DNA of 64,000 bases from Bosea sp. PAMC 26642. Its GTDB lineage: Bacteria; Pseudomonadota; Alphaproteobacteria; Rhizobiales; Beijerinckiaceae. How positions within the stretch are numbered: the first letter of the stretch is position 1; every line of letters begins with the position of its first letter. The stretch lies in assembly GCF_001562255.1 (NCBI RefSeq), contig NZ_CP014301.1, forward strand, positions 1,240,001-1,304,000, in the 5' to 3' direction. Below are positions 45,942-51,456 of this stretch, piece by piece. The translations under genes were made by a program, and so were the position numbers. The notes under the pieces were generated by a model. It was not told where the DNA came from. It ran no database searches and worked only from the letters and a program-made list of their open reading frames with translations.

Positions 45942-46124
45942 CTCTTGCGCCTGTAGGGTCGCGATCAAGGCAGCGGTTGTTGTTTCAGCCGCTCCAGGAC
46001 GCCCCTCGGGTGCTCAGGTCCGCCGCATCTCCTGGGAAACCGGAGGGCTCGGCCGGTCGGTGACGAAATTCTGGCCTCCTCAGAACCGTCGCCGGCCGGC
46101 CACCTTCTTGCCGCTGGCCGCCTC

Positions 46125-48156: not shown

Positions 48157-48596
48157 GGTTTCAGCGTCGCCACGGCTGGCTGGCGCTCGGGCCGGTCCGG
48201 CTCGCCTCCGAAACCATGCATTCGCATCCCCCATTGCAGACCGACGACGCCGCCCTTGACCGGCTGCATCAGGAGCAGCGACAGCACGATCGCCATGGCG
48301 GGCCAGATCGTCATGTGCAGCCACATCGGCCAATCGGCATATTTCTCGGCCATCACCAACCCACCGACGACGATATGGCCGACGATGGTAATGACGATAT
48401 AGGGCGGCAGGTCGTCGGCGCGCTGATGCAGCATGACCTCGCCGCAGGCCTCGCAGGCATCCACCGGCTTCAGGAACGCGCGGAAAAGCCTGCCTTTGCC
48501 GCAATGCGGGCAGCGCCCCATCAGCCCATGCCCGATGGCCATGCGCCAGTCGCGCTCGGCAGGCCGCCCGATGGCATAGTCGATCTGAACAGACAT
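48153..48596 (-). CDS. DUF983 zinc-ribbon membrane protein
   Basis: The 147-residue protein has an N-terminal zinc ribbon (CPHCGKGRLFRAFLKPVDAC and CEACGE) followed by two or three membrane segments (PPYIVITIVGHIVVGGLVMAE and MTIWPAMAIVLSLLLMQPVK). This is the DUF983 family, found between rnr and Nudix/rpmG in Hyphomicrobiales. Function unknown. ATG 48596 overlaps the rnr stop by one base; TTG 48599 is an alternative. Confidence 0.9.
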   Translation of the reverse strand: MSVQIDYAIGRPAERDWRMAIGHGLMGRCPHCGKGRLFRAFLKPVDACEACGEVMLHQRADDLPPYIVITIVGHIVVGGLVMAEKYADWPMWLHMTIWPAMAIVLSLLLMQPVKGGVVGLQWGMRMHGFGGEPDRPERQPAVATLKP

Positions 48597-50962
48597 CAAC
48601 GCCTCTTGCCGGGCTTCGACTTGCCCGTCTTGACGAAGGACGACTTCGCCCTTCCGCCTCCCGGAAATGGTGGCCGTCCAGGCCGCGTTCCAGAGCGTCC
48701 CGGTGTCACATGCCGCCCTTCCGAGAGCAACTCGAAACGCAGGGCGCCCGCGACGGGCGCCGCCTCGACCAGCTTGACGTGGACACGGTCGCCGAGCCGC
48801 CAGCTTTCGCCGCTGCGCTCGCCGACCATGGCGTGCGCCGCCTCGTCGTAGCGATAGTAGTCGGCTCCCAGTGTCGAGGCCGGGATGAAGCCGTCGGCGC
48901 CCGTCCCGTCGAGCTTGACGAACAGTCCGGCGCGGTTGACCCCGCCGATGCGTCCGTCGAACGACGAGCCGATCTGGTCGGCGAGGAAATGCGCGATCAG
49001 TCGGTCGGTGGTCTCGCGCTCGGCGGCCATGGCCCGTCGCTCCGCCGCCGAAATCCGGGTCGAGACCTCGCGCAGTGCTGCGAGCGTCGCGGATTTCGGC
49101 AGCCCGTCATCGCCGAACCGCAGCGCCGAGATCAGCGCACGATGCACCACGAGATCGGCATAGCGCCGGATCGGCGAGGTGAAATGCGCGTAGCGCCGCA
49201 GGTTCAGGCCGAAATGGCCGTAGTTCTCCGCGACATACTCGGCCTGCGCCTGCGTGCGCAGCACGACCTCGTTCATCAGCAACTCGTTCTCGGAGCCGCG
49301 GATCATCGCCAGGATGCGGTTGAACAGAACCGGCCGCAATGCCCCATCCTTCGGCAGCTTGATCCCGATCGAGGCGAGCACTTCGCCCAGCGCCCGCATC
49401 TTCTCCAGCGAGGGCTCGTCGTGGCAGCGATAGATCAGCACGCTTCCAGCTTTTTCCAGCGTTTCGGCCGCTGCGACATTGGCGAGGATCATGAACTCCT
49501 CGATCAGCCGATGCGCTGCCAGCCGCTCGGGCACGATGACGCGGTCGACCGCGCCGTCCGGCTTCAGCACGAGCTTGCGCTCGGGCAGGTCGAGATCGAG
49601 CGGCTGGCGTTCGTCGCGGGCCCGCGAGGCGACGCCGTAAGCCGCCCAGAGGGGCATCAGGATGGTCTCGCGGATCGGGCCGGAGATATCGTCGGGCTTC
49701 CCATCGATCGCGGCTTGCGCCTGCTGGTAGGAGAGCTTCGCCGCAGAGCGCATCAGGATGCGGTGGAAGGAGTGGCTCTTCTTCTCGCCGTTCGATTTCA
49801 GCACCAGACGCACGGCGAGCGCCGGCCTGTCCTCGCCGCCGCGCAGCGAGCAGAGATCGTTCGATATCCGCTCGGGCAGCATCGGCACGACGCGATCGGG
49901 AAAATAGACCGAGTTGCCGCGCTCCAGCGCCTCGCGATCGAGGCTGGAGCCGGGCCGGACATAGGCCGCGACATCGGCGATCGCGACGGTGACGACGTAG
50001 CCGCCGGGATTGTCGGGGCTCGGATCGGGCGCGGCATGGACCGCGTCGTCATGGTCCTTGGCATCGGCCGGATCGATCGTGATCAGCGGCAGTTCGCGCC
50101 AGTCCTCGCGGCCGGCCGTACCCGCGGGCCGCACCGACTCGGCTTCCGCGATCGTCGCCGGCTGGAACACATTTGGGATGCCATGCGCATGGATCGCGAT
50201 CAGGCTGACCGCGCGCTCGGACTTGATCGAGCCAAGCCGCTCACGCACATGGGCCTCGGACGGACCCAGCCGCGTCTCGTTGCGCAGCGACACCGAGACG
50301 AGATCGCCATCCTGCGCCTCGTTGGTGCGGCCCTTCGGGATCAGCGCCTCGCGCCCTTGCGCCTTTTTGTCGATGGGAATCAGCCGGCCCGAGCCGTCGG
50401 GCATGGCGCGGAAGATGCCGAGCACCTGCGCCTTGCCCTTGCCCATCACCTTCAGCACGCGGCCGGAATAGGCGTAGCCATCGACGCCCTTCAGCCGCGT
50501 CAGCTTCAGCAGGACATGGTCGCCGATGCCCGGCGCCGGCGCCGCCTGGCGCTTGGCGCGGAATTCGCGCGGCCGCTCGATCAGGATACGGGGGGCAGGG
50601 CCCTGATCCGCCTCGTCCCACTCGAGCGGCGAGGCCATCAGGTCGCCGTCGCGATCCTTGGCCTTGATCTCGCTCAGCAGGACGGGGGGGAGGGCACCGC
50701 GCGGATGGATCGGGCGCTCGATGCCGTCGCCGCCCGTCTGTCCCTCTTCTTCAAGTTCCTTGAGGAGCCGTTTCAGCCAGATCTTGCCGCCGCCCGAAAG
50801 CCCGAAAGCCTTCGCGATGTCACGGCGTCCGACCTCGCGGCCGGCCTCGCGTTCGGTCTCGATGAAGTCGAGGACCGCCTCGCGGCTCGGTTCGGGCGCG
50901 GATACGGTCAAGACAGGCAACTCGTGGCGAAAGACGGGGCTGGCACGTGCACTGTTTGCCAC
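48596..50962 (-). CDS. rnr: Ribonuclease R
   Basis: This processive 3'-5' exoribonuclease degrades structured RNA and helps turn over rRNA. An N-terminal winged-helix region (AVLDFIETEREAGREVGRRD, IAKAFGLSGGGKIWLKRLLK) precedes cold-shock domains. The RNB catalytic core contains TIDPADAKDHDDAVHA with the metal-binding aspartates and RYAHFTSPIRRYADLVVHRA. An S1 domain (GGVNRAGLFVKLDGTGADGF) and a basic tail (GKSKPGKRR) follow. The frame is open to 51174, but residues upstream do not look like RNase R and overlap the leader structures. I chose the GTG at 50962; TTG codons about 15 residues further on are alternatives. Confidence 0.93.
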   Translation of the reverse strand: MANSARASPVFRHELPVLTVSAPEPSREAVLDFIETEREAGREVGRRDIAKAFGLSGGGKIWLKRLLKELEEEGQTGGDGIERPIHPRGALPPVLLSEIKAKDRDGDLMASPLEWDEADQGPAPRILIERPREFRAKRQAAPAPGIGDHVLLKLTRLKGVDGYAYSGRVLKVMGKGKAQVLGIFRAMPDGSGRLIPIDKKAQGREALIPKGRTNEAQDGDLVSVSLRNETRLGPSEAHVRERLGSIKSERAVSLIAIHAHGIPNVFQPATIAEAESVRPAGTAGREDWRELPLITIDPADAKDHDDAVHAAPDPSPDNPGGYVVTVAIADVAAYVRPGSSLDREALERGNSVYFPDRVVPMLPERISNDLCSLRGGEDRPALAVRLVLKSNGEKKSHSFHRILMRSAAKLSYQQAQAAIDGKPDDISGPIRETILMPLWAAYGVASRARDERQPLDLDLPERKLVLKPDGAVDRVIVPERLAAHRLIEEFMILANVAAAETLEKAGSVLIYRCHDEPSLEKMRALGEVLASIGIKLPKDGALRPVLFNRILAMIRGSENELLMNEVVLRTQAQAEYVAENYGHFGLNLRRYAHFTSPIRRYADLVVHRALISALRFGDDGLPKSATLAALREVSTRISAAERRAMAAERETTDRLIAHFLADQIGSSFDGRIGGVNRAGLFVKLDGTGADGFIPASTLGADYYRYDEAAHAMVGERSGESWRLGDRVHVKLVEAAPVAGALRFELLSEGRHVTPGRSGTRPGRPPFPGGGRAKSSFVKTGKSKPGKRR

Positions 50963-51010
50963 GATCGGGGCGCCAACGCCAGAACGGGACCGGCACGGCA
51001 GTTCCGCAAC

Positions 51011-51042
51011 GAAAGAAGGGCCGCCCTTTCGGGCAGCCCTTC
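51011..51042 (-). terminator. Terminator-like hairpin in the rnr leader
   Basis: On the minus strand GAAGGGCTGCCC, GAAA, GGGCGGCCCTTC form a 12-bp stem (one G-T pair) with a GNRA tetraloop, followed by TTTCGTT. It lies between a 25-codon ORF and the rnr coding region, so it may terminate the short ORF transcript or attenuate rnr. Confidence 0.75.
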
Positions 51043-51056
51043 CATTGTCGTACCGC

Positions 51057-51074
51057 GGTCCGGCGAACCGGACC
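51057..51074 (-). other. UUCG-loop hairpin in the rnr leader
   Basis: On the minus strand GGTCCGG, TTCG, CCGGACC form a 7-bp stem 16 bases after the small-ORF stop. It is a likely stable RNA element preceding the terminator-like hairpin. Confidence 0.65.
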
Positions 51075-51089
51075 CAAAGGCGCGAAAAC

Positions 51090-51167
51090 TCACGCGGAAC
51101 AAGACCCCCACTGGGAATGAGTCCAGGTCCGACCGCTTCGAGCCAGCGGTTGATGACAATGAGACAC
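51090..51167 (-). CDS. 25-codon leader ORF (microprotein or leader peptide) upstream of rnr
   Basis: The GTG at 51167 starts MSHCHQPLARSGRTWTHSQW followed by GSCSA and TGA: 25 residues with three His, two Cys and two Trp. Seven bases separate the GTG from GGAGG of a Shine-Dalgarno region that matches the 16S 3' end over 14 bases, the best initiation signal in the window. It is in a different frame from rnr. A UUCG hairpin and a terminator-like hairpin follow. It could be a leader peptide controlling rnr or an independent small protein. I cannot name a family. The coding call rests on the start signal and structure, not on homology. Confidence 0.6.
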   Translation of the reverse strand: MSHCHQPLARSGRTWTHSQWGSCSA

Positions 51168-51168
51168 T

Positions 51169-51182
51169 GGATCACCTCCTTT
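51169..51182 (-). promoter_or_regulatory. Extended Shine-Dalgarno: 14-base perfect complement of the 16S rRNA 3' end
   Basis: AAAGGAGGTGATCC on the minus strand is the exact complement of GGAUCACCUCCUUU, the universally conserved 16S 3' terminus. Ordinary Shine-Dalgarno sites in this window are 4-6 bases. It precedes the 25-codon ORF at 51167. Confidence 0.85.
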
Positions 51183-51232
51183 CAGTTGTTACCGACGAGA
51201 TGAGGCTAGGCCGATTCCCGCCGCCTCGTAAA

Positions 51233-51238
51233 TGTCAA
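51233..51238 (-). promoter_or_regulatory. Possible -35 element of the rnr leader promoter
   Basis: TTGACA on the minus strand, 51 bases upstream of the extended Shine-Dalgarno. No good -10 match follows at 16-18 bases, so this is tentative. Confidence 0.35.
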
Positions 51239-51456
51239 AAAGCGTGCGCTACCACCGCCTCGAAATCGCGCTGTCTCCTGCGAAATGCGCCATCCAAAAG
51301 CGGATGGGCAAAATAGAGGCGTCCTGATTGCCTAAAGTTTATGCAATCCAGCAGGATGGGCAGAATCGTTGCGTGGATCGGGGTCGGCAACGCAGGAAAT
51401 GTTAATAAATTCCGTCTTGCGGCAGAGAATGCGGCCGATGTCATCGGCGAGGCATC

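Follow-up and report, generated by a model that had tools for sequence, protein, structure and literature searches.

The window analysed here, a 64,000-nucleotide stretch of DNA from Bosea sp. PAMC 26642, carries on the minus strand of positions 51240-51011 a compact unit whose features are collected in Table 1. At 51183-51167 (-) the strand reads GAAAGGAGGTGATCCAG, 15 bases of which are complementary to the 3′ tail of 16S rRNA; adding AG, the two bases that follow, extends the match to 17 contiguous bases when it is judged against the 16S 3′ termini from three other Alphaproteobacteria (ending CTGGATCACCTCCTTTCT) rather than the window's own 16S. A preliminary description of this DNA had noted a 14-base complement, which is present and slightly longer than stated. 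It had also correctly recorded a GTG (51167-51165, 7 nt 3′ of GGAGG), the 25-codon ORF that this codon opens (51167-51090 including TGA), a UUCG hairpin, and a 12-bp GAAA-loop hairpin with a short T-run, a stem of which our consensus scan saw only the inner 5 bp. The rnr frame runs without a stop at 48596-51175 (-), as a mechanical ORF of 859 codons reaching a GTG inside the Shine-Dalgarno (SD) stretch, and about 5 kb away lies a second sRNA gene, RF02500 (Atu_C6, EcpR1; 45999-46106 (+), 71.3 bits against 60).

Table 1. Features of the unit on the minus strand of the window
Feature	Position	Strand	Basis
Putative promoter: TTTACG, 16 nt, CCTAGCCT; weak -35	51203..51232	-	Two-block motif; position inferred
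Predicted RNA of ~185 nt	51011..51195	-	5′ end inferred from promoter spacing
RF01867 match	51017-51191	-	cmscan, 93.9 bits, cut-off 75
GAAAGGAGGTGATCC, complementary to the 16S 3′ tail	51169..51183	-	Sequence, duplex energy, class-wide conservation
Micro-ORF, GTG start, 25 codons, TGA; peptide VSHCHQPLARSGRTWTHSQWGSCSA	51090..51167	-	Translation, kept frame
Closing stem P1, 5′ arm CATTGTC	51155..51161	-	cmscan, covariation, arm tests
Closing stem P1, 3′ arm GACAATG	51043..51049	-	cmscan, covariation, arm tests
Interior UUCG hairpin GGTCCGG-TTCG-CCGGACC	51057..51074	-	Sequence; 6 predicted pairs, columns 145-162 of alignment A1
Intrinsic terminator: 12-bp GAAA-loop stem 51042-51015, then TTTC	51011..51042	-	Sequence, pairing across aligned members

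The duplex energy of the 16S complement with the 16S tail is -29.7 kcal/mol, compared with -18.8 kcal/mol for the best of 1832 candidate starts drawn from ORFs of at least 100 aa. The earlier statement, which put the SD of every other start at 6 bases or fewer, was slightly off: among these 1832 mechanical starts, 15 have 7-9 bases, including one that lies within the SD described here. The 5.5-Mb genome contains a single copy of the 13-mer AAAGGAGGTGATC, where about 0.16 copies were estimated by chance. The locus is significant because it is conserved, and not because of this single match.

That conservation begins with a family the preliminary description did not name. In cmscan the locus is a member of Rfam RF01867 (CC2171, a Caulobacter sRNA), matching model positions 1-159 at 93.9 bits against a cut-off of 75. 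The family itself is already known to Rfam; a member in Mesorhizobium huakuii figures in a 2017 prediction (PMC5596092, excerpt), and Rfam 15 gives the family one additional covarying pair (PMC11701678, excerpt). RF01867 was found in 33 of 41 genomes in a sample of relatives (26 over the cut-off) and, at E ≤ 0.001, in 61 of 289 genomes of the class (10 over the cut-off). None of 20 loci tried from other clades matched at the gathering score, though some scored weakly. The clade names used below (CC2171, sphingomonad, Rhodobacterales, MSSD and Bradyrhizobium type) are motif labels, not taxonomy.

The reach of the 5′ block is wider. The pattern AAAGGAGGTGATCCNRTGTC recovers at least 117 loci in genome contigs, and the 80 of these with titles are from Alphaproteobacteria, save a few labelled only Proteobacteria. 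Because this pattern already demands RTGTC, start statistics were taken from scans without a start codon requirement. A 13-mer scan of 385 class genomes, whose pattern requires a final base other than A and therefore overlooks some members, among them the window's own, returned 77 sites, 3 of them 16S genes; among the remaining 74, an ATG, GTG or TTG stands exactly two bases past GATC in 63 (ATG 33, GTG 27, TTG 3), followed by TC in 55. The corresponding count for 13-mer sites in non-alpha Pseudomonadota of a phylum sample is 0 of 24. When up to two mismatches were allowed, within which RTGTC was again demanded, 101 of the 385 sampled alphaproteobacterial genomes matched (98 without three doubtful ones), against a single hit for the reversed-pattern control. 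Three doubtful sites (G403, G208 and G406) of 102 were dropped, and in all 99 kept sites GGAGGTG is unchanged. From the second base of the 16S complement onward, 32 changes in these sites keep a G-U pair and 8 do not; restoring the three doubtful sites raises the pair-breaking changes from 8 to 12 and ends the invariance of GGAGGTG. The A of GATC has become G 13 times and the last C has become T 14 times, both of which retain pairing with the 16S tail, while the last C has also become G 5 times and A once, both of which break it; the first base (G) of the complement is changed, and its pairing broken, in 11 of the 99. Transition bias could account for part of the pair-keeping changes. The kept letters track the 16S tail on both flanks of GGAGG, as AAA and GATC, and outside the stems no conserved stretch is longer than the 16S complement, inside which a 3-bp GGA/UCC self-pair is predicted. 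Should the RNA act on a target by base pairing, 16S would thus be the natural candidate. On these sequence comparisons, the predicted stand-alone RNA belongs both to RF01867 and to a broader alphaproteobacterial group of the same anatomy: a 16S complement, a start codon at fixed spacing, a short frame with a kept stop, a stem that closes shortly after the start codon, and a terminator.

The reading frame is kept in length rather more than in content. In frame 0, 196 of 204 members reach a stop after 14-30 codons, as opposed to 43 and 54 in frames 1 and 2, a count that leaves out 7 of 211 loci (two with long frames, and those without TG at the start position). The frame has 18 codons in 19/19 members of the Rhodobacterales type and 30/34 of the sphingomonad type, 14 codons in 12/12 of the Bradyrhizobium type, 20-27 in 63/63 of the CC2171 type and 22-26 in 30/30 of the MSSD type, the remaining 53 members being mixed. 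The Rhodobacterales, sphingomonad and Bradyrhizobium types each use all three stop codons at an unchanged position. Among distinct start-bearing sites read from the 13-mer and two-mismatch scans, 31 of 33 have frames of at most 40 codons, and the second codon starts with TC in 92 of 99 sites. Start and stop are accordingly kept in one frame, as would be expected of a small translated mRNA or dual-function sRNA.

Constraint on the peptide itself was gauged by the synonymous share of single-base codon differences, with duplicates removed and only 18-codon sphingomonad, 23-codon MSSD and 25-codon genus members admitted for those groups. In the window's genus the share is 0.53 in frame versus 0.22 and 0.27 in the other frames, and the Rhodobacterales type has a slight excess (0.38 versus 0.33 and 0.30). 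No in-frame excess was detected in the sphingomonad (0.24 versus 0.32 and 0.49), Bradyrhizobium (0.21 versus 0.34 and 0.40) or MSSD (0.25 versus 0.26 and 0.34) types. The synonymous third-position change that the preliminary description had proposed to look for in relatives is clear in the genus, slight in the Rhodobacterales type and missing in three other clades, and constraint on peptide sequence, as judged from these substitutions, appears clear only in the window's genus. Peptides of different clades have little in common beyond M/V-S. In two Bosea records (L075 and L080) the peptide is identical at 22 of 25 residues; in four loci of the same genus (L011, L012, L013 and L019) a different peptide is encoded over about 4 codons before the same stop is reached, a difference we read as two offsetting one-base shifts, the aligner itself having placed no gap. 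We take the kept stops, varying peptides and offset shifts together as a sign that what the ribosome makes counts for less than its travelling the frame from start to stop. A metagenome-assembled genome labelled Methylobacterium (L109) carries a peptide of the window's genus. The loci L136 (Azospirillum), L181 and L200 have the same 16S complement followed by frames of 56-59 codons, with a start that by eye resembles a signal peptide. In Caulobacter, most ncRNAs lie in regions found untranslated by profiling, while two earlier ncRNAs have turned out to be translated (PMC4117421, excerpt); should CC2171 belong to the untranslated ones, the translated reading would be wrong there.

The RNA is also constrained as a structure. 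None of 200 shuffles gave a fold as stable as the predicted one (z -3.7), and P1 and the terminator coexist in one fold. In an alignment of 33 of 264 loci, P1 (7 pairs) and the terminator (12 pairs) are paired in 98.6% of cells, and 8 of these 19 pairs have changed on both sides, a figure matched by 0 of 500 shuffles and above that of slid controls; the conserved fold of RF01867 is thus present in the aligned members. Terminator helices 2 and 3 are paired in 99.2% and 90.9% of cells, with 6 of 12 pairs changed on both sides. Of the two hairpins in which the preliminary description had proposed to look for covariation, the terminator shows it; the evidence is more mixed for the UUCG hairpin, whose 6 predicted pairs have each changed on both sides in 2-8 sequences but are broken or gapped in 3-9 of the 33.

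RNAalifold on whole clades blurred the variable interior, and the P1 arms were then tested apart. They change together across clades (CATTGTC/GACAATG, CATGGTT/GACCATG, ATGAGATT/AATCTCAT). A helix score of 12 is attained with their own arms by 60/61 CC2171-type members (0.29 with foreign arms), 27/32 sphingomonad (0.27), 11/19 Rhodobacterales (0.16), 19/30 MSSD (0.55), 11/12 Bradyrhizobium (0.33) and 40/50 other members (0.38); for mean helix score, P1 of the MSSD clade is no better than its control (11.7 versus 11.6). A longer duplex test, excluding seven odd loci, found that the own arms outscored every one of the 20 foreign arms in 101 of 199 loci, where about 1 in 21 is expected, with a weak result in the Rhodobacterales type (3/19). 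Judged from sequence covariation, most clades, with one exception, thus appear to maintain a stem that runs from immediately behind the start codon to the terminator. Internal anti-SD stretches of at least 7 nt are common only in the Bradyrhizobium (12/12) and Rhodobacterales (12/19) types, as compared with 12 of 173 others; in these two clades they could mask the SD, while the window's own type is without one (2/61 CC2171-type members, or 0.03, versus 0.06 in shuffles). The 14-codon frame of the Bradyrhizobium type (e.g. L105, L115 and L142) contains UCACCUC, complementary to the SD, in 12/12 members, a possible self-masking switch.

Upstream, 161 non-redundant regions share a two-block motif, CTTGCCA-N15-CCCATACT, that scores 9.3 (best of 25 starts) versus 5.7-5.9 in 4 base-shuffled sets (best of 8). 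A consensus scan found no sigma-70 promoter at this locus. A heat-shock promoter was considered, as CTTG-N16-19-CYNAT occurs in 22 of 211 upstream regions versus 1.07 in shuffles, and was set aside when a TTGAC pattern proved to be enriched too (22 versus 1.5).

Neighbouring genes differ from clade to clade. In a survey of 59 RF01867 loci, the next gene downstream, on the same strand, is rnr in 25/25 genomes of the window's genus, while none of the 34 loci from other genera has rnr within 1.5 kb. In representative loci, the Rhodobacterales type is flanked by a queuosine-precursor transporter gene and arfB, the sphingomonad type adjoins tlyA and a branched-chain aminotransferase gene, the Bradyrhizobium type a histidine kinase gene, and the MSSD type a relative of cyclopropane-fatty-acid synthase. 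A DUF188 gene adjoins in Ancylobacter and, on the other strand, in L139, within a cluster of 12 loci that spans two motif groups. No neighbour is common to all clades in these loci, and the RNA is thus best regarded as its own unit. Three of the six clades have neighbours (arfB for ribosome rescue, tlyA, and rnr in Bosea) that we take to be ribosome or RNA-decay genes, a suggestive coincidence that may be due to chance. In two loci the RNA lies between the transporter gene and arfB on the same strand (L060, 4331-5005 (+); L160, 3120-3680 (-)).

What is kept in this RNA suggests, on the sequence record, that catching ribosomes is its purpose, as start and stop are retained and the peptide mostly is not. 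We lean towards a stand-alone, translated small RNA whose conserved job would be to engage 30S subunits or ribosomes: the 5′ stretch, which matches the single-stranded 16S tail over nearly its entire length, would recruit 30S subunits, the recruited ribosomes would translate the short frame, and the conserved function would be this engagement, as occupancy of the RNA or holding of the 30S subunit, and not the peptide or rnr. A strong SD by itself needs no special function. Pairing that extends to within about 1 base of the start codon is, on structural grounds, probably more than an initiating ribosome can use at once, and for this reason a second, non-initiating mode of 30S binding is suspected alongside initiation. 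A bolder and distinctly tentative extension is that the RNA grips the 16S tail throughout the class, capturing 30S subunits (or mature 16S tails) over nearly the full single-stranded length so as to titrate or sense free ribosomes, with a throw-away micro-ORF that would free the captured ribosome. An RNA titrating 30S subunits was among the readings first offered for this locus; engagement of the 30S subunit is the best fit to what is conserved, of which titration would be one possible form.

Several other explanations must be weighed against ribosome engagement. A microprotein gene, whose product would be the 25-residue peptide and whose strong SD would be there to express it, is unlikely but deserves the most attention among them, as start and stop are kept, TC opens the second codon almost throughout, and synonymous differences are in clear excess in the genus and slightly so in the Rhodobacterales type. 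It has difficulty with peptides that share little across clades, with the three types devoid of an in-frame excess, and with the four same-genus loci whose peptide is altered over about 4 codons. The earlier suggestion of a standalone microprotein gene with its own terminator therefore keeps its standalone unit and its terminator, and is weakened as to the microprotein, for which constraint is clear only in the genus. We think it improbable that the RNA is a non-coding base-pairing sRNA, or a sponge for anti-SD sRNAs such as SisA-D of Caulobacter, with an incidental ORF: Rfam does class it as an sRNA, it is structured and ends in a terminator, and Sis sRNAs do bear an anti-SD 10-mer (PMC12559287, excerpt), yet the kept letters follow the 16S tail (AAA, GATC) beyond what a CCUCC loop would call for, and kept stops are unexpected in an incidental ORF.

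The proposal that the region is a ribosome-sensing leader, controlling rnr by termination or read-through, draws on the invariable position of rnr in the genus and on the short T-run; we consider it very unlikely, as rnr is absent within 1.5 kb of all 34 loci from other genera, P1 and the terminator form together in one fold, and the terminator closes a free-standing unit. That nothing special lies here, only a chance strong SD ahead of a spurious ORF, is scarcely credible: a lone 13-mer match would be no great rarity in 5.5 Mb, but class-wide conservation at a fixed start spacing (63/74 versus 0/24), together with the two-mismatch scan and the kept frame length, already contradicts it.

Type I toxin mRNAs combine an extended SD with long-range folding near the start codon, and the present RNA resembles them in both respects; it differs in that its peptides, judged by eye on translations, are polar and variable, with no single hydrophobic segment and no sign of a short hydrophobic toxin. 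To RF01867 it conforms in a full-length match above the cut-off, the same 5′ block, P1 and terminator, the kept micro-ORF being our addition to what Rfam types as an sRNA gene. Like rnTrpL of Sinorhizobium and Spot 42, it is a small RNA with a very short frame (PMC10117765, excerpt), but rnTrpL is leaderless, whereas here an SD covering almost all of the 16S tail precedes a peptide of variable sequence. SisA-D are likewise alphaproteobacterial small RNAs built on SD pairing (PMC12559287, excerpt), in the opposite sense: the RNA described here carries the SD itself, and a Sis-type CCUCC anti-SD stretch was found in 2 of 61 CC2171-type members. In one model alphaproteobacterium, an SD precedes the start of 24.6% of coding sequences versus 19.2% by chance (PMC4117421, excerpt). 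A literature search, mainly of openly accessible papers, found no paper on the class-wide reach, the 16S-tail complement or the kept micro-ORF. What is listed in one family as an sRNA appears, in many Alphaproteobacteria, to be translated and ribosome-gripping, which offers a direct means of asking whether the 16S tail itself can be a point of action for small RNAs; changes to the 16S complement, start, stop and stem could separate functions of the peptide, of translation and of the RNA.

The pattern also turns up in six viral contigs (L268-L273), for which a phage origin was considered and judged less likely: three (L268, L269 and L271) belong to the Bradyrhizobium type, two (L271 and L273) sit no more than 0.6 kb from the end of their contig, and in L272 another frame is read, which stays open over the 200 bases examined. 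These copies are likelier to be host flanks or prophage neighbourhoods. Another of them, L270, keeps the 5′ block and then departs from type. A search for plasmid copies of one Rhodobacterales-type RNA gave no match, and one genome (G052) carries two loci of the pattern.
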